64,000 nt of DNA from Anaerolineae bacterium (lineage in GTDB: Bacteria > Chloroflexota > Anaerolineae > Caldilineales > Caldilineaceae), in assembly GCA_030432295.1 (NCBI GenBank), contig JAUIHI010000018.1, forward strand, positions 1 to 64,000, read 5' to 3'. Shown piece after piece: positions 11,126 through 54,606 of this stretch (position 1 is its first letter; the number at the start of each line of letters is the position of its first letter). Made by a program: the position numbers and the translations under genes. Below the pieces are notes generated by a model, which searched no databases, was not told where the DNA came from, and was given only the letters and a program-made list of their open reading frames with translations.

Positions 11126-12577
11126 ATGCCCAACCGACCCAACCTGCTCTTTTTGATGCCCGACCAGCTCCGTCCGGATTTTCTGAGCTGCTATGGGGCA
11201 GACTTCATCGAGACGCCCCACATCGACAACCTGGCCGAACGGGGCATCCGTTTCGAGAAAGCCTATTCTACCCATCCCATCTGCGTGCCGGCCCGGGCCA
11301 GTCTGCTCACCGGCATCAACGCCATCCGCACGGGTGTGACCGACAACGGCCAGTGGCTGCGCCCGGACCTGGCCGAATGTGGCATCCACACTTGGCCCGA
11401 ACTGCTCAACCGCCAGGGCTACTACACCGCGGCCATCGGCAAAATGCACTTCTACCCCTGGGATATCGTCCACGGCTTCGGCTACCGGGTGGCCTGCGAG
11501 GACAAGCGCTGGATTCGGGTGCGGGACGACTACCAGGAATTTCTGCACAGCCGGGGACTGCGCAAGCTCCACGGCAACGAACATCCCGACTACCACGCGG
11601 GCAAAGGCGCGACCGTCAGCCCCATCCCCTGGGACGCCTCCTGGGATCACTTCGTGGGCAGCGAGGCCGTGCGCTTCATCGACGAATACGCGACCGAAGG
11701 ACCCTTTGCGGCGATGGTGGGCTTCCCTGGCCCCCACTGCCCCTACGACCCCACGCCGGAGTATCTGGAAAAGATCGACCCGGCCCAAATGCCCGCTCCG
11801 ATCCCGGCGACGAACACCCCGGCAGGGATGATTGAGGGCAATGTGCAGGGCAATCTGGGGGAATGGAATGGGGTGGATTACACAGAATTCAACGACGAGC
11901 ACAAGCGCAGAATCCGCACTCACTACGCGGCGCTGGTCAAACAGATCGACGACGAAATCGGGGGCATTCTGGCCGCGCTGGAACGCACGGGCCAGTTGGA
12001 GAATACGATTATCATCTTCGCCAGCGATCACGGCGACTATCTGGGCGATCACGGGATGATCGGTAAGAGCAGCTTCTACGAAGCCAGCACCCACGTGCCG
12101 ATGATTCTGGCCGGGCCGGGTATCAGTGGCCCCGCAGTCAGCCAGGAAATTGTGGCCCTGCTCGACGTGACTGCCTCTCTGCTCCACGCGGGGGGCGCGG
12201 AGCTGCCCGGCTATCTGGATTCCCGCCCTCTGCCCGGCCTGGGCGCGGAGCGCACGCCCCACGAAACGCTTTTCGGGGCCACCAGCAGCGGCTGGATGCT
12301 CTACGACGGGCGTTGGAAGTTGTGTAAGTACGCCACCGGGGATATTCTATTCTTTGACTTGGAAAGCGATCCGACGGAAGAACACAATCTGGCGGGCGAC
12401 CCGGCCCATCTGGAGCGCTATCTGGCAATGGACGCCGCACTTGCTCAGGAGTTGATGCGCTCCATCACTGCCGCCAACTCGGATCGCCGGGTCTACACCG
12501 GCAACAGTATGTGGAACGACGACGACTTCGGCAAGCGGGGCTGGCAGCGACGCTATCCCCAGCCGATTGAAGGATAG
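11126..12577 (+). CDS. type I sulfatase
   Basis: 483 residues of the alkaline-phosphatase-like sulfatase family. The formylglycine motif is intact: Cys53 in CVPARASLLTG, the C-x-P-x-R signature that must be oxidised by a sulfatase-modifying enzyme (not in this window). Metal ligands are suggested by MPDQLRPD near the N terminus and FASDHGDYLGDHG in the second half. No signal peptide, so it probably acts in the cytoplasm on imported sulfate esters. AAGGA lies ten bases before the ATG. The nearby beta-propeller glycosidase and dehydrogenases suggest use of a sulfated glycan, but this is inference. Confidence 0.93.
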   Translation: MPNRPNLLFLMPDQLRPDFLSCYGADFIETPHIDNLAERGIRFEKAYSTHPICVPARASLLTGINAIRTGVTDNGQWLRPDLAECGIHTWPELLNRQGYYTAAIGKMHFYPWDIVHGFGYRVACEDKRWIRVRDDYQEFLHSRGLRKLHGNEHPDYHAGKGATVSPIPWDASWDHFVGSEAVRFIDEYATEGPFAAMVGFPGPHCPYDPTPEYLEKIDPAQMPAPIPATNTPAGMIEGNVQGNLGEWNGVDYTEFNDEHKRRIRTHYAALVKQIDDEIGGILAALERTGQLENTIIIFASDHGDYLGDHGMIGKSSFYEASTHVPMILAGPGISGPAVSQEIVALLDVTASLLHAGGAELPGYLDSRPLPGLGAERTPHETLFGATSSGWMLYDGRWKLCKYATGDILFFDLESDPTEEHNLAGDPAHLERYLAMDAALAQELMRSITAANSDRRVYTGNSMWNDDDFGKRGWQRRYPQPIEG

Positions 12578-12594
12578 AGATTGAGGATCAGCGC

Positions 12595-12712
12595 CGGTTG
12601 AGTAGGCTGGGGCTGTTTCCAGCCGTATCGAAACCAAGCGGGTAGACTTGCTCAGACTCGTAGACCCGTTCGCTTGGTTTCGATACGCCTCGAAGACTCG
12701 GCTACTCAACCG
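12595..12712. repeat. structured palindromic element, copy A
   Basis: An 11-bp closing stem (CGGTTGAGTAG, 12595-12605, with 12702-12712) encloses a small hairpin GCTGG-GGCTGTTT-CCAGC (12606-12623) and a 17-bp stem CGTATCGAAACCAAGCG (12624-12640 with 12671-12687). Copy B at 15602-15746 keeps the loop GGCTGTTT but changes stem bases in a compensated way. Confidence 0.9.
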
Positions 12713-12787
12713 ACACTTACTGGCTGGGTATTATTCGTCGATTTTGTAAAGCGTGTGCTTGTCACCACCCCAAAACCGGGAGGCTCT

Positions 12788-13540
12788 GTGGAACTGCTCG
12801 CCCATTCTGTCAACAATTTTAACGGTGTGATTATCGACCCCACCCAACTGCCCGATGACCTGGCCGAGTTTCGGGAGCTGCTGGAGCTATCCATCGCCCA
12901 GTGGCGGGCCGACGGACGGCAGGTGGTCTGGATGGAAGCGCCCTCCCGCCAGGCCGCGCTGATCCCTCTGGCCGTGGACGCGGGCTTCAGCTTCCACCAC
13001 AGCCAGGACGGCTATTTGATGATGACTCTCCAATTGCAGGAGGGCGCGTTCATCCCCTACTACGCCACCCATTACATCGGCGCAGGCGGTGTGGTCATCA
13101 ACAGCCGCCAGGAGATTCTGGTGGTCTGCGAGCGCTTCCGCCGGGGCAACCGGCCCTACTACAAACTGCCCGGCGGCGCGCTCCATCCCGGCGAGCATCT
13201 GGTGGATGGGGTGATCCGGGAGGTGCGGGAGGAGACGGGTGTGGAGGCCAAATTCGAGTCCCTGGCCTGCTTCCGCCACTGGCACGGCTACCGCTACGGC
13301 AAATCCGACATCTATTTTGTCTGCCGCCTCTCGCCTCTCAGCGAAAAAATCGTGATGGACGATTACGAGATCGAAGAGTGCAAATGGATGCCCGTGGCCG
13401 AATATCTGGAAAGCGAACTGGTGGGTCTCTTCAACCGTCGTATCGTGCGCGCCGCCATCGAGAATCCGGGCATTCCGTCGGTCTGGGTGGAGGGGTATAG
13501 CGACCCGACAACCCACGAGTTCTTCTTTCCTGAGGGATGA
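12788..13540 (+). CDS. Nudix hydrolase with N-terminal pre-Nudix domain
   Basis: 250 residues from a GTG at 12788 behind GGGAGG. Upstream in-frame codons run into the palindromic element, so a longer start is unlikely. Residues 1-85 resemble the pre-Nudix domain of NUDT6-like proteins. The Nudix box at about 130-152 is complete: G-ALHPG-E-HLVDGVI-REVREETGV. Hydrolyses a nucleoside diphosphate linked to another moiety; the substrate is not evident. The C-terminal part carries DDYEIEECKWMPVAEYL, the usual last strand-helix of the fold. Confidence 0.9.
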   Translation: MELLAHSVNNFNGVIIDPTQLPDDLAEFRELLELSIAQWRADGRQVVWMEAPSRQAALIPLAVDAGFSFHHSQDGYLMMTLQLQEGAFIPYYATHYIGAGGVVINSRQEILVVCERFRRGNRPYYKLPGGALHPGEHLVDGVIREVREETGVEAKFESLACFRHWHGYRYGKSDIYFVCRLSPLSEKIVMDDYEIEECKWMPVAEYLESELVGLFNRRIVRAAIENPGIPSVWVEGYSDPTTHEFFFPEG

Positions 13541-13639
13541 GCTTTTGCTGGGTGCTCCGTCACCTTCGGGCATTACGGAGTACGCAGCACGCAGCAAACA
13601 CCACCACCGGATTTCCACCCCATCGGAGTTCACAATCCT

Positions 13640-14395
13640 ATGCAAATCGACCTTTCTGGAAAAATCGCACTCATCACTGGCGCGGCGGGCGGCATTGGCC
13701 GGGCCTGCGCCCAGACATTGGCCGAGGCCGGCGCGTTCGTCGTCGCTGTGGACCTCAACGAAGCGGGCGTGCAGGAAACGATTGACCTCATCGGCGGTGG
13801 ACGCAGCCGGGGGCTGGCTGTGGGATGCGATCTGCGCAGTCCCGAAGCTGTAACCGCCCTGCGTGACCGGGTGTTGACCGAAGCTGGCGGCGTGGACATT
13901 CTGGTCAACTGCGCCGGGCTGATCTCTTACCGCAAGGGCATCAACGCCGTCTCGGTGGACGAATGGGACCTGCTGCTGGACGTGAACCTGCGCGGCACGT
14001 TCCTCATCTGCCAGGCCTTCATCGACAGTATGAAAGAGCGGCGCAACGGGGCTATTATCACCTTCTCGTCCCTGGCGGCCCGGGTGGGCGGCATCGAAGT
14101 CGGCATCCACTATTCGGCTTCCAAAGCTGCCCTCATCGGCCTCACCCGCACCCTCGCCAAAGAGGGCGGACCCTACGGCATTACCGTCAACGCAGTGGCC
14201 CCCGGCGTCATTCTCACGGATCCGGTCAAACGGCAGGTGGGCGATCACGAGGACGACTACACAAAGTCGATCCCCCTCCAGCGACTGGGCCAGGCTCAGG
14301 ATGTGGCCAACGTCGTCCTCTTTTTGGCATCACCCCTCTCCAGTTATATAACAGGAGTGGTTCTCGACATCAACGGTGGGATGTATATGGGATAA
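13640..14395 (+). CDS. short-chain dehydrogenase/reductase
   Basis: 251 residues of a classical SDR. NAD(P)-binding TGAAGGIG at residues 13-20, NCAG in the fourth strand (about 93-96), catalytic Ser in FSSLAA and the YSASK active-site motif. Asp in VVAVDLN after the second strand favours NAD over NADP. Similar to FabG and gluconate/sugar dehydrogenases; the next gene is an Ldh-type hydroxy-acid dehydrogenase, which suggests sugar-acid catabolism. GGAG lies eleven bases before the ATG. Confidence 0.92.
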   Translation: MQIDLSGKIALITGAAGGIGRACAQTLAEAGAFVVAVDLNEAGVQETIDLIGGGRSRGLAVGCDLRSPEAVTALRDRVLTEAGGVDILVNCAGLISYRKGINAVSVDEWDLLLDVNLRGTFLICQAFIDSMKERRNGAIITFSSLAARVGGIEVGIHYSASKAALIGLTRTLAKEGGPYGITVNAVAPGVILTDPVKRQVGDHEDDYTKSIPLQRLGQAQDVANVVLFLASPLSSYITGVVLDINGGMYMG

Positions 14396-14543
14396 AAGTT
14401 GATGCGTGAGGAGTGATGCGTGAAAAAGGCCGGGTGATCTCTCGTTTCACCTTTCTGGTCGGCAAAAAAATCCGTGCAAATCCATACTATCCGTACAAAT
14501 CCGTGTCCTTTTTTCAAGGCAGCCACATCATACGAGGTGAAAA
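14396..14543. other. intergenic spacer with short near-repeats
   Basis: The 148-base gap holds GATGCGTGAGGAGTGATGCGT and phased ATCCGTGCAAATCC/ATCCGTACAAATCC copies. A similar phased string (ATCTGCGTAAATCTGCG) lies at 15772-15790. No gene or clear promoter is seen. Confidence 0.5.
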
Positions 14544-15590
14544 GTGAGCACAGGACCCACTCTGATTTCCGAAAGCAAACTCAATAAATTCGTCGTCGAT
14601 GTATTGGCGAAGGCGGGTGTCCCCGAAGCAGACGCGGCAGTTGTGGCCGATTGTCTGCTCCTGGCCAACCTCTCCGGCGTGGATTCCCACGGCATTGTGC
14701 GCCTGGCCCACTACATCCGCCGCCTGGAGAATGGCTCCATCAAGACCCATCCCACCCTGAACTTTGAACAGACAGCGCCTTCGATGGGCATTATGGACGG
14801 CGGCGACGGCCTGGGCCACGTCGTCACCAATCACGCCACCACAAAGGCTATGGAACTGGCTTCCGAATCCGGAACCGGCGTTGTCTCCATCCGGGATTCC
14901 AGCCACTTCGGCATGGCCGGATTCTACATTCTGCGGATGATCGAAGAGGGCTATATCGGCATCGCCATGACCGCCACGGACAAAATGCTCGTTCCCTTCG
15001 GTGCGAGGAAGGCCTTTTTTGGGACTAATCCCCTGGCCATCGGCTTCCCCACCAACGGCATTCCGGTGATGTTGGATATGGCGACGACCCTCACCGCCTG
15101 GGGCAAAGTGGCCCTGGCCCGTGTGGAAGGCAAACCCATCCCCGCTGACTGGGGGATCGACGCGGCAGGCAACCCCACCACCGACCCCAACGCCATCGCC
15201 GGGCTGCACCCCTTTGGCGGCTCCAAAGGCAGCGGGCTGGCGATGATTATCGACATCTTTTGCAGTGTGCTGGCTGGCCTGCCCTGGGGACCCCACATCA
15301 ATCTGATGTACGGCGAGATGGACCAGCCCCGCAAGCTCGGCCATTTTGTGATGGCGATTGATGTCAAGCGGCTGCTGCCCCTGGAATTCTTCAAAAGCCA
15401 TCTGGGCGCGATGCTGGAAGAGTTTTCTGCACTGCCCCCCGCCGAAGGCTTCAATCGGGTCTACTATCCGGGCCAGATCGAAGGGCTGAATCGGGAGCGC
15501 CGCCGGGCCGAGGGTTGTCCCGTCGATCCGGGGCTGTTCGCCGAGCTTTCCGAACTGGGCCAGCGTTTCGGTGTGCCCTTCCCCGGCTGA
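14544..15590 (+). CDS. Ldh-family (malate/L-lactate/ureidoglycolate type) dehydrogenase
   Basis: 348 residues of the Ldh_2 family, which uses an NAD-binding fold unlike ordinary Rossmann dehydrogenases. The catalytic-region histidine lies in SGVDSHGIVRLAHYI (about residues 50-64); the conserved segments SSHFGMAGFY and FFGTNPLAIGFP and the glycine-rich HPFGGSKGSGLA follow. GTG start at 14544 after GAGGTG. It oxidises or reduces a 2-hydroxy acid; which one is not evident. Its position after an SDR and before GlcF fits hydroxy-acid metabolism. Confidence 0.92.
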   Translation: MSTGPTLISESKLNKFVVDVLAKAGVPEADAAVVADCLLLANLSGVDSHGIVRLAHYIRRLENGSIKTHPTLNFEQTAPSMGIMDGGDGLGHVVTNHATTKAMELASESGTGVVSIRDSSHFGMAGFYILRMIEEGYIGIAMTATDKMLVPFGARKAFFGTNPLAIGFPTNGIPVMLDMATTLTAWGKVALARVEGKPIPADWGIDAAGNPTTDPNAIAGLHPFGGSKGSGLAMIIDIFCSVLAGLPWGPHINLMYGEMDQPRKLGHFVMAIDVKRLLPLEFFKSHLGAMLEEFSALPPAEGFNRVYYPGQIEGLNRERRRAEGCPVDPGLFAELSELGQRFGVPFPG

Positions 15591-15601
15591 TGATAACCGC
15601 T

Positions 15602-15746
15602 CAAGACCAGCGCCGGTTGAGTAGGTGGGGGCTGTTTCCCACCGTATCGAAACCTAGCGGGTAGACGCGTTCTTGCTACTCACTCGTTCGCTAGGTTTCG
15701 ATACGCTTCGAAGACTCGGCTACTCAACCAGCGCTCACTGGTCTTG
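15602..15746. repeat. structured palindromic element, copy B
   Basis: Closed by CAAGACCAG/CTGGTCTTG, with hairpin GTGGG-GGCTGTTT-CCCAC (15625-15642) and the 17-bp stem CGTATCGAAACCTAGCG (15643-15659 with 15689-15705). Compared with copy A, three stem pairs change on both strands while the 8-base loop and the 3' string CGAAGACTCGG are unchanged. Confidence 0.9.
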
Positions 15747-15837
15747 TGATCGTTCACATCCGATCTCCGCTATCTGCGTAAATCTGCGGTTTCTGCGCAA
15801 TCTGCGTCCCTATGAAATTTCCAAAGGAGTCTCCCCC

Positions 15838-17148
15838 TTGCGCCACGCCATCCCCGTTGAAGAACTCGGCCCCCAGGCCCACGCCATGGCCCACGCGGTG
15901 GAAGCCTGTGTCCACTGCGGTTTCTGCCTGCCCGCCTGCCCCACCTATTTGACACTGGGCGAGGAGATGGACTCGCCCCGCGGCCGCATTCTGCTGATGA
16001 AAGGGGTGCTGGAAGGTGAACTGGAACTGGCCGACGCTTTGCCCTATGTGGACCGCTGTCTGGGCTGCCTGGGCTGTGTGACCGTCTGCCCGTCGGGTGT
16101 GGAGTACGGCGAACTGTTGGCCCCTTTTCGCGCCCAGGCCGAGAAGCAGCGGGAACGCCCCCTGCTGGAAAAGATCACCCGGCTGATGGTCAACCAGACG
16201 CTGCCCTATCCGGGACGCTTCCGGGCCGCGGCGGCAATGGGCAAGCTGGCCCGTCCGCTGCAAGGAATGCTGCCCGCACCCATGCGTACAATGCTCGGCC
16301 TGTTGCCAGATGAAATGCCCGCCAGCCAACCCCTGCCGTCGCTGATTCCCGCCGAGGGGACACGACGGGCGCGGGTCGCGCTGCTGGCAGGATGTGTGCA
16401 GCAGGTGCTGGCCCCGGAGATCAACTGGGCGACTGTGCGGGTGCTGGCCCGCAACGGTGTGGAAGTGGTGATTCCCGAGGGCCAGGGCTGCTGTGGCGCG
16501 CTCTCTATGCACAACGGCGAAGGAGGCCAGGCCGAACGATTGGCCCGGCACAATCTGGGCATCTTCGATCTGGACGACGTGGACGCCATCGTTACCAACG
16601 CCGCGGGCTGTGGCTCCGGGATGCACGAGTATCCCCTGCTCTTTGCGGGCAGTGCCGACGAAAAGCGGGCCGAACAATTCGCGGCCAAAGTCCAGGACAT
16701 CAGCGTCTTTTTGGACAATCTGGGCATCGAAGCGCCCCCGGCCCTGGAAGCACCGCTCACAGTCGCCTATCACGACGCCTGCCACCTGGCCCACGCCCAG
16801 GGCGTGCGTGAAGCCCCCCGCCGTCTGCTAACAGCCATCCCCGGCGTCACCCTCGCGCCGATTGGCGAGGGCGAAGTCTGCTGCGGCTCGGCAGGCACCT
16901 ACAACATCGAACAGCCGGAATTGGCCCAGCAATTGGGTCAACGCAAAGCCAATGCTGTGGCCGCTACCGGCGCTGACCTGCTGGTCACCGGCAATATCGG
17001 CTGTATGACCCAAATCAGCAGCCATCTGAACAGACAGGGCAAACCCTTGCCCGTCCTCCACACAATTCAACTGCTCGACCGGGCCTACACCGGCGAACCC
17101 ACAGGGGCGACTTCCCGTGCCCCGCACAGAGAGAAAATTCCCGCATGA
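15838..17148 (+). CDS. glcF: glycolate oxidase iron-sulfur subunit (GlcF-like)
   Basis: 436 residues from a TTG behind AAAGGAG (eight-base spacing). Two [4Fe-4S] motifs: Cys24/27/30/34 in [12 protein letters not shown] and Cys74/77/80/84 in [12 protein letters not shown]. Two CCG domains follow, with GCVQQVL...GQGCCGALS and [11 protein letters not shown]...EVCCGSAG. This is the electron-transfer subunit of glycolate or related hydroxy-acid oxidases; the FAD subunits GlcD/GlcE are not in the window and may lie elsewhere. The next gene overlaps by ATGA, so translation is coupled. Confidence 0.9.
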
Positions 17149-52416: not shown

Positions 52417-54606
52417 ATGCCCACCAGACACCAGGCCGCCGGGCCAGCAATTGCTCACAATTTAGGCGTCTACCGTCTCACCGGCTTCACCGGACGCAAC
52501 GCAGAACTGCTCACCCTGCGCGATTGGCTGACCGACGACAGCGGTCAGGCCGCGCTTGCCATCAGCGGTGGCCAGGGCAACGGCAAAAGCACCATCGCCA
52601 CCGCCGTAGCCTGGAACACCATCCACCACTTCCCCGACGGGGTGATCTGGGTGGGCGCGGCCGGCGGTTCCAGTTTTCGGCTCTATGATATTGTGCGCAC
52701 CCTGGACACAGTGCTGGGCACAACTCTGACCCGTGTCAGCAAAGAGCGCTGGGGCATCGGCATTCTGGAGCAGCTTTATCGCCGCCGTCGCCTGCTGATT
52801 CTGGACGAGCTTTCGGGCGCCACCGACGACGAAATCCGTACACTGGTGGACATCATCAGCCACCTGCACGAATCTGGTGGACGCTCCCGCATTCTGCTCA
52901 TCGACCGGGACATCAACCCGGAAATCGTCGGATTGGTGGGGGCGCATCACCTGCACCTGGGCGGTCTGACTCTGGCCGAGAGTGTGGAATTTGTGGGTCG
53001 TCGTGCGCCGGAAGATGCACGCAGCACGGCCCTGCGCTATGTGGAGGAGTTGCACGCGGCCACCGGTGGCCGCGCCCTGGCCATGCGTCTGGTAATGGGG
53101 CTGCTGCTGGACTACGGCGCGTGGGGGGAACTCAGCGGCGCGCTGGCCGAGTTGCCCACCTTCAACGACGCCCTGAGTATGCCCGAACTGGCCGCCTTTG
53201 CCGTGGAAAACTTTGCGGCCTTCTGGCCCCAGGCTGGCCCCCTGTTGGATCGGCTGGTGAGCGCGGCTGGTGGCGCCTCGTTCAGGGCGCTGCGCGAACT
53301 TTTCTGGGGCGATCTGGGCGCAGAGGAGGAATTTCAGGAGACCCTGCAAGCGCTGGTTGCCCGTGCTCTGGTGGAGGAGAACAACTTCACCCAGCGTATT
53401 GTCGTGCAACCGGTGGTGCGTCGCTATCTGGCCCAGGGCGCGGTGATGTTGGGCGAGGAATGGAACCGCAGCCACGCGGCCTACTATCTGCGCTATGTCC
53501 GTCGCTATCAGGAAATTCCTCTGCAACGCTGGAATGAACTCGACCCGGAATGGGGCAACACCCATCTGGGCGCGGATTGGCTGAGTACCCGCATCGAGCG
53601 CATCTGGCGACAGCCTGCAATTGCCCTGGTACGGGAACCCCTGGAAAAGACAGGTCTGCCCGAAGTTGTGATGGATTCGCCAGAGGCGCAGGCCGATCTG
53701 CGCTTGATGCGGAACTATGCGCTTGCCCTGGCCCACTACGCATTCTGGCGTCACCCACCGGGAATTCTGCGCTGGCTCTCGGCTGGCGCGGTTGCTGCGT
53801 TTGCCCTGGGCGACATCCGGGACTTCGGCTGGCTGTTGACAAACATTGGCCGCCAACTCTTCTTCACCGGCGAAGTGGAAGCGGGTGTGGAATGGCTGGA
53901 GCGGGCGCTGCGTATCTTCGACGAGAAGGATATGCTGATGGAGATGGCCTATGTCCACACAGATTTGGGCACATCCCTGCGGGTGATGGACGAACCCCGT
54001 CCCGCGCTGGACCAGTTCTGGCTGGCCTTTGAAGCGGTGGCCCAACTGGGCGATCAGCGATCCCTGGCCACCGCCTATATCAATCTGGGCAGCGCCTATT
54101 TCAGTATGAACAACTACGAGAAGGCCATCGAGCAGCAGCGCAAAGCCCTGCGGATTGCCCTGCGCCTGAACAATCCTCAGCTAACAGCCAGCGCCCACAA
54201 CAATATGGGGCTGGCCCTGGAAGGAATGGAGCGCTTCAACGACGCCCACCAGGCCTATCGGAATGCCCTGGCCGTCTTCCAGCAGATGGCAGACCAGGCA
54301 GGCATCAGCACCTGTTACAACAATCTTGGCTCGGTGGCCTATGCCCGCCAGGACTTTGAAGAAGCCCTGCAATGGTATGAGAAGGACCTGGCGCTTTCCG
54401 AGCAGCGGGGCGCGTGGATGGACGAAGCCGCCACCCTGCACAATCTGGGCCACGTGGCCCTGGAGCAGAAGAACCACGCCCAGGCCCGCAGCTACTTCGA
54501 GCGCAGCCGGGACCTTTACGCCGCGTTCCAGCTTGCCGACTACGTGACCGAAGAGAGCGATATGTTGGAATATGTGGCTTCCCTGGCAGAGGAAAGCGAT
54601 GAATAG
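52417..54606 (+). CDS. NB-ARC-like STAND ATPase with TPR repeats
   Basis: 729 residues. Walker A SGGQGNGKST (about 50-59), Walker B LLILDELSG (about 128-136) and RILLIDRD as sensor-like site; then winged-helix region (ending VRRYLAQGA) and at least six C-terminal TPRs from about residue 480 (ALRIFDEKDMLMEMAYVHTDLG, SLATAYINLGSAYFSMNNYEKAIEQQRKAL-type units and LHNLGHVALEQKNHAQAR). Typical of signal-transducing NTPases that oligomerise on ligand binding. Begins ten bases after the Rossmann gene, so probably the same operon. No DNA-binding domain seen. Confidence 0.88.
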   Translation: MPTRHQAAGPAIAHNLGVYRLTGFTGRNAELLTLRDWLTDDSGQAALAISGGQGNGKSTIATAVAWNTIHHFPDGVIWVGAAGGSSFRLYDIVRTLDTVLGTTLTRVSKERWGIGILEQLYRRRRLLILDELSGATDDEIRTLVDIISHLHESGGRSRILLIDRDINPEIVGLVGAHHLHLGGLTLAESVEFVGRRAPEDARSTALRYVEELHAATGGRALAMRLVMGLLLDYGAWGELSGALAELPTFNDALSMPELAAFAVENFAAFWPQAGPLLDRLVSAAGGASFRALRELFWGDLGAEEEFQETLQALVARALVEENNFTQRIVVQPVVRRYLAQGAVMLGEEWNRSHAAYYLRYVRRYQEIPLQRWNELDPEWGNTHLGADWLSTRIERIWRQPAIALVREPLEKTGLPEVVMDSPEAQADLRLMRNYALALAHYAFWRHPPGILRWLSAGAVAAFALGDIRDFGWLLTNIGRQLFFTGEVEAGVEWLERALRIFDEKDMLMEMAYVHTDLGTSLRVMDEPRPALDQFWLAFEAVAQLGDQRSLATAYINLGSAYFSMNNYEKAIEQQRKALRIALRLNNPQLTASAHNNMGLALEGMERFNDAHQAYRNALAVFQQMADQAGISTCYNNLGSVAYARQDFEEALQWYEKDLALSEQRGAWMDEAATLHNLGHVALEQKNHAQARSYFERSRDLYAAFQLADYVTEESDMLEYVASLAEESDE

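Follow-up and report, generated by a model that had tools for sequence, protein, structure and literature searches.

The described system that we take to be closest to the repeat analyzed here is the Ssn family, GIY-YIG site-specific single-stranded nucleases that go with the NTS repeats of Neisseria and have a role in natural transformation. Our subject is a palindromic element on a 64,000-nt stretch of an Anaerolineae bacterium (contig JAUIHI010000018.1, positions 1 to 64,000, forward strand; hereafter, the window), and its likeness to Ssn and NTS lies in a small GIY-YIG protein together with a repeat in hundreds of copies.

A second comparison is with repetitive extragenic palindromic (REP) sequences and their doublets, the REPINs (REP doublets forming hairpins). 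In Escherichia, Pseudomonas and Stenotrophomonas, these carry GTAG at the foot of a hairpin, form head-to-head dimers with a variable spacer, and lie between genes in tens to hundreds of copies (PMC3733652, PMC3116915, PMC8266576); GTAG-tagged REPs usually accompany transposases of the RAYT (REP-associated tyrosine transposase) type (PMC3733652, PMC8266576). The CGTC REPs of alpha-Proteobacteria, Neisseria and others are also head-to-head palindromes, reported without a dedicated transposase, and their mobilisation was left open in a 2013 survey (PMC3733652). With the former, the element in the window shares the GTAG foot, the head-to-head pairs, the intergenic position and the high copy number, and with the latter the head-to-head palindromes. 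A sequence-only reading of the window had found that no known family fits, which holds for the exact sequence but not for the architecture, which is that of REPs and REPINs; what differs is the partner enzyme. We consider it probable that the palindromes are a REPIN-like mobile repeat of two inverted half-units whose partner is a small UPF0213-type GIY-YIG nuclease, acting on folded single-stranded DNA.

Half-units, their hairpins and their copies

The window holds two copies of the element on the + strand, copy A at 12586..12723 (GATCAGCGCC ... GACACTTACTGGC; sequence-model match, E 1.9e-35) and copy B at 15605..15742 (GACCAGCGCC ... AGCGCTCACTGGTC; E 2.3e-34), both part of an alignment of 28 copies. 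The sequence bears out both palindromes as first described, with their stems, loop and string. In copy A, the left half-unit (12597..12634, +) reads GTTGAGTAG-[GCTGG GGCTGTTT CCAGC]-CGTATCGAAAC, with its hairpin at 12606..12623, and the right half-unit (12677..12710, -) reads GTTGAGTAG-[CCGAGTCTTCGAGG]-CGTATCGAAAC, both matching the exact core pattern. In copy B, the left half-unit (15616..15653, +) again matches the exact pattern, its hairpin at 15625..15642 having the stem GTGGG/CCCAC, while the right one (15695..15728, -) matches the core pattern around hairpin CCGAGTCTTCGAAG. The two copies share the loop GGCTGTTT, the string CGAAGACTCGG, CGTATCGAAACCNAGCG as a stem, and GCGCCGGTTGAGTAG / CTACTCAACC as closing arms. 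Folded as DNA, they reach z = -6.1 to -7.7 against 200 shuffles, none of which equalled them.

The general form of the element, of ∼137 nt, is GACYAGCGCC-GGTTGAGTAG-[hairpin 1]-CGTATCGAAACCNAGCGGGT-variable 20 nt-ACCCGTTCGCTNGGTTTCGATACG-[hairpin 2]-CTACTCAACCGGCGCTCACTGGTC, with terminal inverted arms GACCAG...CTGGTC. Its two half-units are inverted relative to each other, and each reads GGTTGA-GTA-[hairpin]-GTA-TC-ga-AACC. A lone half-unit, folded as DNA, forms a GGTTGA/TC(ga)AACC stem that leads through a symmetric internal loop, GTA/GTA, to a terminal hairpin. This hairpin is modular, hairpin 2 containing AGAATCCnnnGGATTCTG in many copies and different inserts in others, between arms that do not change.

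Which of the possible folds is selected can be read from the 28 aligned copies, with the proviso that they are related by descent, so cell counts are not independent events. Paired cells make up 98.3% under the half-unit fold versus 96.2% under the full palindrome. Most telling is the half-unit pair 96-129, which is GC in 20 copies and AT in 8 without a single break; under the full-palindrome fold, the same change turns the long-stem pair into C.A and the closing-stem pair mostly into G.T. As this co-change (GGTT/AACC to GATT/AATC) preserves the half-unit and breaks long-stem pairing, it is the half-unit fold, not the 17-bp stem put forward by the sequence-only reading, that appears to be selected. 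The A-T versus T-A swap which that reading had counted as covariation, at alignment columns 52 and 94, dissolves over the 28 copies into A-T in 15, C-G in 1, T-A in 1 and unpaired in 11. In contrast, the compensatory change from GCTGG/CCAGC to GTGGG/CCCAC in the first hairpin is real, and pair 24-37 of hairpin 1 covaries across copies (GC in 16, TA in 12). Its loop, identical in copies A and B as had been claimed, is only semi-conserved beyond them (KGCTKTTT). In addition, among 119 distinct inserts from other genomes, mostly of other phyla or classes, the foot (first) pair of the hairpin is Watson-Crick in 97% versus 42% expected, and all four pair types occur. Covariation across copies thus supports the half-unit fold with a modular hairpin rather than the swap in the 17-bp stem.

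The element is abundant. A first DNA search of its own genome gave dozens of copies, and a sequence-only model built from the 28 aligned copies found ∼90 full or near-full ones. The half-unit pattern has 140 matches there against 1 for the reversed pattern, and the half-units occur as + / - pairs; a scan of genome contigs with GTTGAGTAGN{2,32}CGTATCGAAAC gave at least 118 stretches. Related copies are present in all six members of the genus that were searched and are patchy elsewhere in the family and class, and of 400 genomes sampled from the phylum only 20 contain the exact core. Among the matches listed, the pattern extends to Chloroflexota, Actinomycetota (Microbacteriaceae, Gordonia, Aeromicrobium), Spirochaetota (Treponema), Gallionella and Poribacteria; 28 genomes in that set carry 1 to 175 half-unit copies each and none of the reversed pattern, the highest number being that of Treponema bryantii. 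In other phyla, the core GTTGAGTAG...CGTATCGAAAC encloses many unrelated hairpins, and GTAG lies directly 5′ of the hairpin (GTTGAGTAG-[hairpin]) in 149 half-units at 118 loci of other genomes, again among the matches listed.

Transposase and nuclease genes as candidate partners of the repeat

These properties (GTAG at the hairpin foot, head-to-head pairs, intergenic position, high copy number and no target duplication) are those of published GTAG REPs (PMC3733652, PMC8266576), and they would suit a classical REPIN mobilised in cis or in trans by a RAYT, a Y1 enzyme of the IS200/IS605 superfamily. The element's own genome does contain seven Y1_Tnp matches, and a transposase of this kind had been named early on as a partner to look for. 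However, the 37 loci with a Y1_Tnp match in this genome and in the ten relatives searched all lack flanking half-units. Moreover, no Y1_Tnp match was found in 15 of 25 repeat-bearing genomes, including that of T. bryantii with its 175 copies, nor in genome G002, which has >50 copies but is only 74% complete. A RAYT as the general partner of the half-units is therefore largely refuted, and we regard this explanation as improbable. Two individual Y1 proteins were tried and rejected: one lies 1.6 kb from a repeat (locus L242), the other 0.1 kb from a repeat but with palindromes of its own on both sides (L175). At another locus of the own genome (L032, G000:C24:362610-365942), a RAYT-like Y1 gene sits amid many copies of a repeat of its own, GTAGGYGACCTTCCGGGAAGAGGCC, unrelated to the element.

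A different gene does adjoin the half-units. In T. bryantii, a 97-aa open reading frame (ORF) lies between two head-to-head half-units. Compared with 16,904 ORFs of all loci, it matched at four further loci, every one of them adjoining half-units: in an Anaerolineales bacterium, in the own genome (L296, G000:C12), in genome G041 of the same class, and in Homoserinibacter. Similarly, regions chosen only for closely spaced half-units contained a GIY-YIG gene in 3 of 20 cases (an Anaerolineae, a Microbacterium and a Micrococcales genome). A small GIY-YIG (UPF0213-like) gene thus abuts half-units in eight genomes of three phyla. That of the own genome (G000:C12, ∼52,984-53,289) lies between two copies of the element and, as in two Anaerolineae, uses a TGA stop that falls within the GGTTGAG arm of the following half-unit, or within a close variant. 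At this locus (L296, 1339-2190), three elements cluster around the gene, the outer two sharing a long variant right arm with GCCGCCAGACGTTGGTGGGAAGGTCGTTTGTT.

The encoded proteins match Pfam GIY-YIG (PF01541; E 5.9e-16 to 3.1e-17), and five of them, across three phyla, are 52-61% identical to the own-genome protein. They also match the UPF0213 structures BH0048 (1zg2) and EF2693 (1ywl), which have the same GIY-YIG domain type by sequence and were deposited as hypothetical proteins; we know of no repeats beside the genes for these two. No relative of the nuclease was found in viral contigs, and GIY-YIG matches in phages were only partial.

The pairing was also examined starting from the protein. 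Twenty plasmid GIY-YIG genes were picked by protein search alone and read with their flanks; one query was an alpha-proteobacterial GIY-YIG sequence composed as a probe rather than taken from a database. The same repeat was present on both sides of 11 of the 20 genes, compared with 1 of 27 and 3 of 150 pseudo-genes serving as controls under the same rule; the remaining nine include housekeeping-like UPF0213 genes. Repeats tagged CGTC or GTC flank such plasmid genes in Novosphingobium, Sphingobium, Azospirillum, Neorhizobium and Shinella. Five of the plasmid loci (L386, L387, L392, L393, L398) have CGTC-tagged REPs on both sides of the GIY-YIG gene. On Methylobacterium and Sphingomonas plasmids (L383, L384, L385), the GIY-YIG genes adjoin palindromes with a similar TGAG...TCGAA core and other arms, which are perhaps part of a wider superfamily.

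Placement, turnover and the nature of the folded strand

All 34 half-unit groups of the own genome fall outside ORFs predicted by a crude gene finder, which also places the copies a median of 62 nt downstream of the upstream stop, with divergent gaps rare. Both copies in the window follow this pattern. Upstream of copy A is a sulfatase-like gene by sequence (11126..12577, +; in the ORF list, with orthologue ends in five genomes of the genus), whose stop lies ∼9 nt before the element, and upstream of copy B a malate/lactate dehydrogenase-like gene, again by sequence (14544..15590, +; in the ORF list, the junction having orthologues in four genomes of the genus), whose stop lies ∼15 nt before it. 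Conservation of the core ends sharply and is gone from the flanks within approximately five bases.

These orthologous junctions show that the element comes and goes and that such slots accept other palindromes. Where copy B sits in the window, each of four other genomes of the genus has an unrelated palindrome of its own, whereas at the copy A junction, five other genomes have one decayed left half, two other palindromes, and in two cases none. Counting the gap at window positions 15591-15838 with its counterparts at loci L327, L328, L329 and L331, five species of the genus hold five unrelated palindromes at this one site. A ATCCGTGCAAATCC...ATCCGTACAAATCCGTGT repeat at window positions 14465-14515 resembles the palindrome of genome G006 at the copy B junction. 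The sequence-only reading had proposed a search for further copies and, as options, a selected folded molecule or a mobile palindrome; the ∼90 copies, the covarying hairpin and the turnover at orthologous sites support a multi-copy palindrome under selection for folding.

The terminal inverted arms GACCAG...CTGGTC and the intergenic dispersal might also suggest a miniature inverted-repeat transposable element (MITE), moved by a DDE transposase specific for its terminal inverted repeat. Against this, 77 elements showed neither a target-site duplication nor shared flanking bases (the best of many tests reaching z 2.6), and solo half-units persist in the own genome. Nor would a sequence-specific DDE end explain the freely varying hairpin, and no transposase gene with such ends was seen. 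We therefore give a MITE hardly any chance. At the solo halves of the own genome, no gene was seen between the two halves of one copy, as an autonomous element would have. An integron attC site was considered as well and rejected: GTTGAGT fits GTTRRRY, but the geometry is inverted.

Among the neighbours of the half-units, an all-against-all BLAST returned only common families as recurrent ones, and in low-copy genomes (Gallionella, one Treponema, Agreia) the neighbours were ordinary only. Methionine genes (O-acetylhomoserine sulfhydrylase-like and MetH-like by sequence) adjoin half-units unusually often (L190, L213, L259, L280, L360, L168), a slight excess that may be due to chance among common families.

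The sequence-only reading had left open whether the molecule selected for folding is RNA or single-stranded DNA. A structured RNA or 3′-end element following genes, such as a terminator, an mRNA stabiliser or an attenuator, would account for copies that lie just past stops, in gaps flanked by co-directional or convergent genes, and stay away from divergent promoters; it would also account for orthologous slots that often hold another palindrome, as if any hairpin served. The hairpins of T. bryantii NK4A124 speak for DNA instead. At each of their first three stem positions, 95% of the pairs are Watson-Crick, and the 286 cells in total include 3 GT and 1 AC. Loops of the form GNA closed by C-G occur in 67 of 100 hairpins and the complement TNC in none, a preference that is weaker in the inserts of Actinomycetota and Chloroflexota. 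Mini-hairpins of the d(GCGAAGC) type are exceptionally stable as DNA, so the bias towards GNA over TNC suggests that one strand of the folded DNA is under selection. Strand-specific C(GNA)G loops and stems nearly free of G.U-type pairs fit folded single-stranded DNA better than RNA. Moreover, half-units occur in either orientation relative to tandem genes, the palindromes have no Rfam match up to E 1, and a role at 3′ ends would leave the fixed asymmetric core and the adjacent nuclease gene unexplained. On balance, we consider an RNA or 3′-end element unlikely, and of the two original options favour single-stranded DNA.

A GIY-YIG nuclease as proposed partner, and the relation of the element to known repeats

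Taken as a REPIN-like repeat with a GIY-YIG partner, the element could work as follows. The half-unit would probably act as folded single-stranded DNA on the strand reading GTTGAGTAG...CGTATCGAAAC, exposed, for example, on the lagging-strand template or in DNA entering the cell. The GIY-YIG nuclease may recognise the fixed core and nick the hairpin in its single-stranded state. The nick might then be repaired or recombined in a way that copies or moves the repeat, and sometimes the nuclease gene with it, into intergenic sites. Copy number, the covarying half-unit fold, turnover, placement between genes, the adjoining GIY-YIG gene and the missing RAYT neighbour are shown by the sequences; DNA as the substrate, recognition, nicking and copying are inferred.

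Several observations weigh against this proposal. The own-genome GIY-YIG protein has Lys in place of a Glu conserved in its relatives (KKQVQGW vs EKQVQGW), and this copy may be inactive, judging from the substitution; the copies in G041 and Homoserinibacter are interrupted. The chromosomal GIY-YIG loci were all chosen via the repeat, several of them via repeat clusters, and adjacency within repeat-chosen loci alone carries a chance probability of only ∼4e-4. Among genomes with >50 half-units, the nuclease is shown only in the own genome and T. bryantii, the others having had no whole-genome nuclease search.

Compared with the REP/REPIN and RAYT systems, the fixed core of the element extends further on either side (GTTGAGTAG / CGTATCGAAAC), and its GTAG lies within a larger stem; the element lacks a flanking RAYT, many of its hosts have no Y1_Tnp match, and a GIY-YIG gene adjoins it instead. 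Its core likewise departs from that of the CGTC REPs, which have a CGTC tag by an 8-9 bp stem, a 4-5 nt loop and a CCA tail. Tag and stem sequence are different, as is the GIY-YIG subtype on the plasmids.

A broader and more tentative idea, which we think has a real but smaller chance of being right, is that small GIY-YIG nucleases serve in general as the partners that mobilise or maintain REP families without a RAYT, namely, the cross-phylum GTTGAGTAG/CGTATCGAAAC family and the CGTC REPs. Hairpin repeats would then be spread via single-stranded DNA by a second class of enzymes. The pairing of GIY-YIG gene and repeat offers a testable partner both for the CGTC REPs and for the hairpin family of Chloroflexota, Actinomycetota and Spirochaetota. 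If true, it would link REP biology to single-strand-specific GIY-YIG nucleases and provide many natural pairs of enzyme and target.

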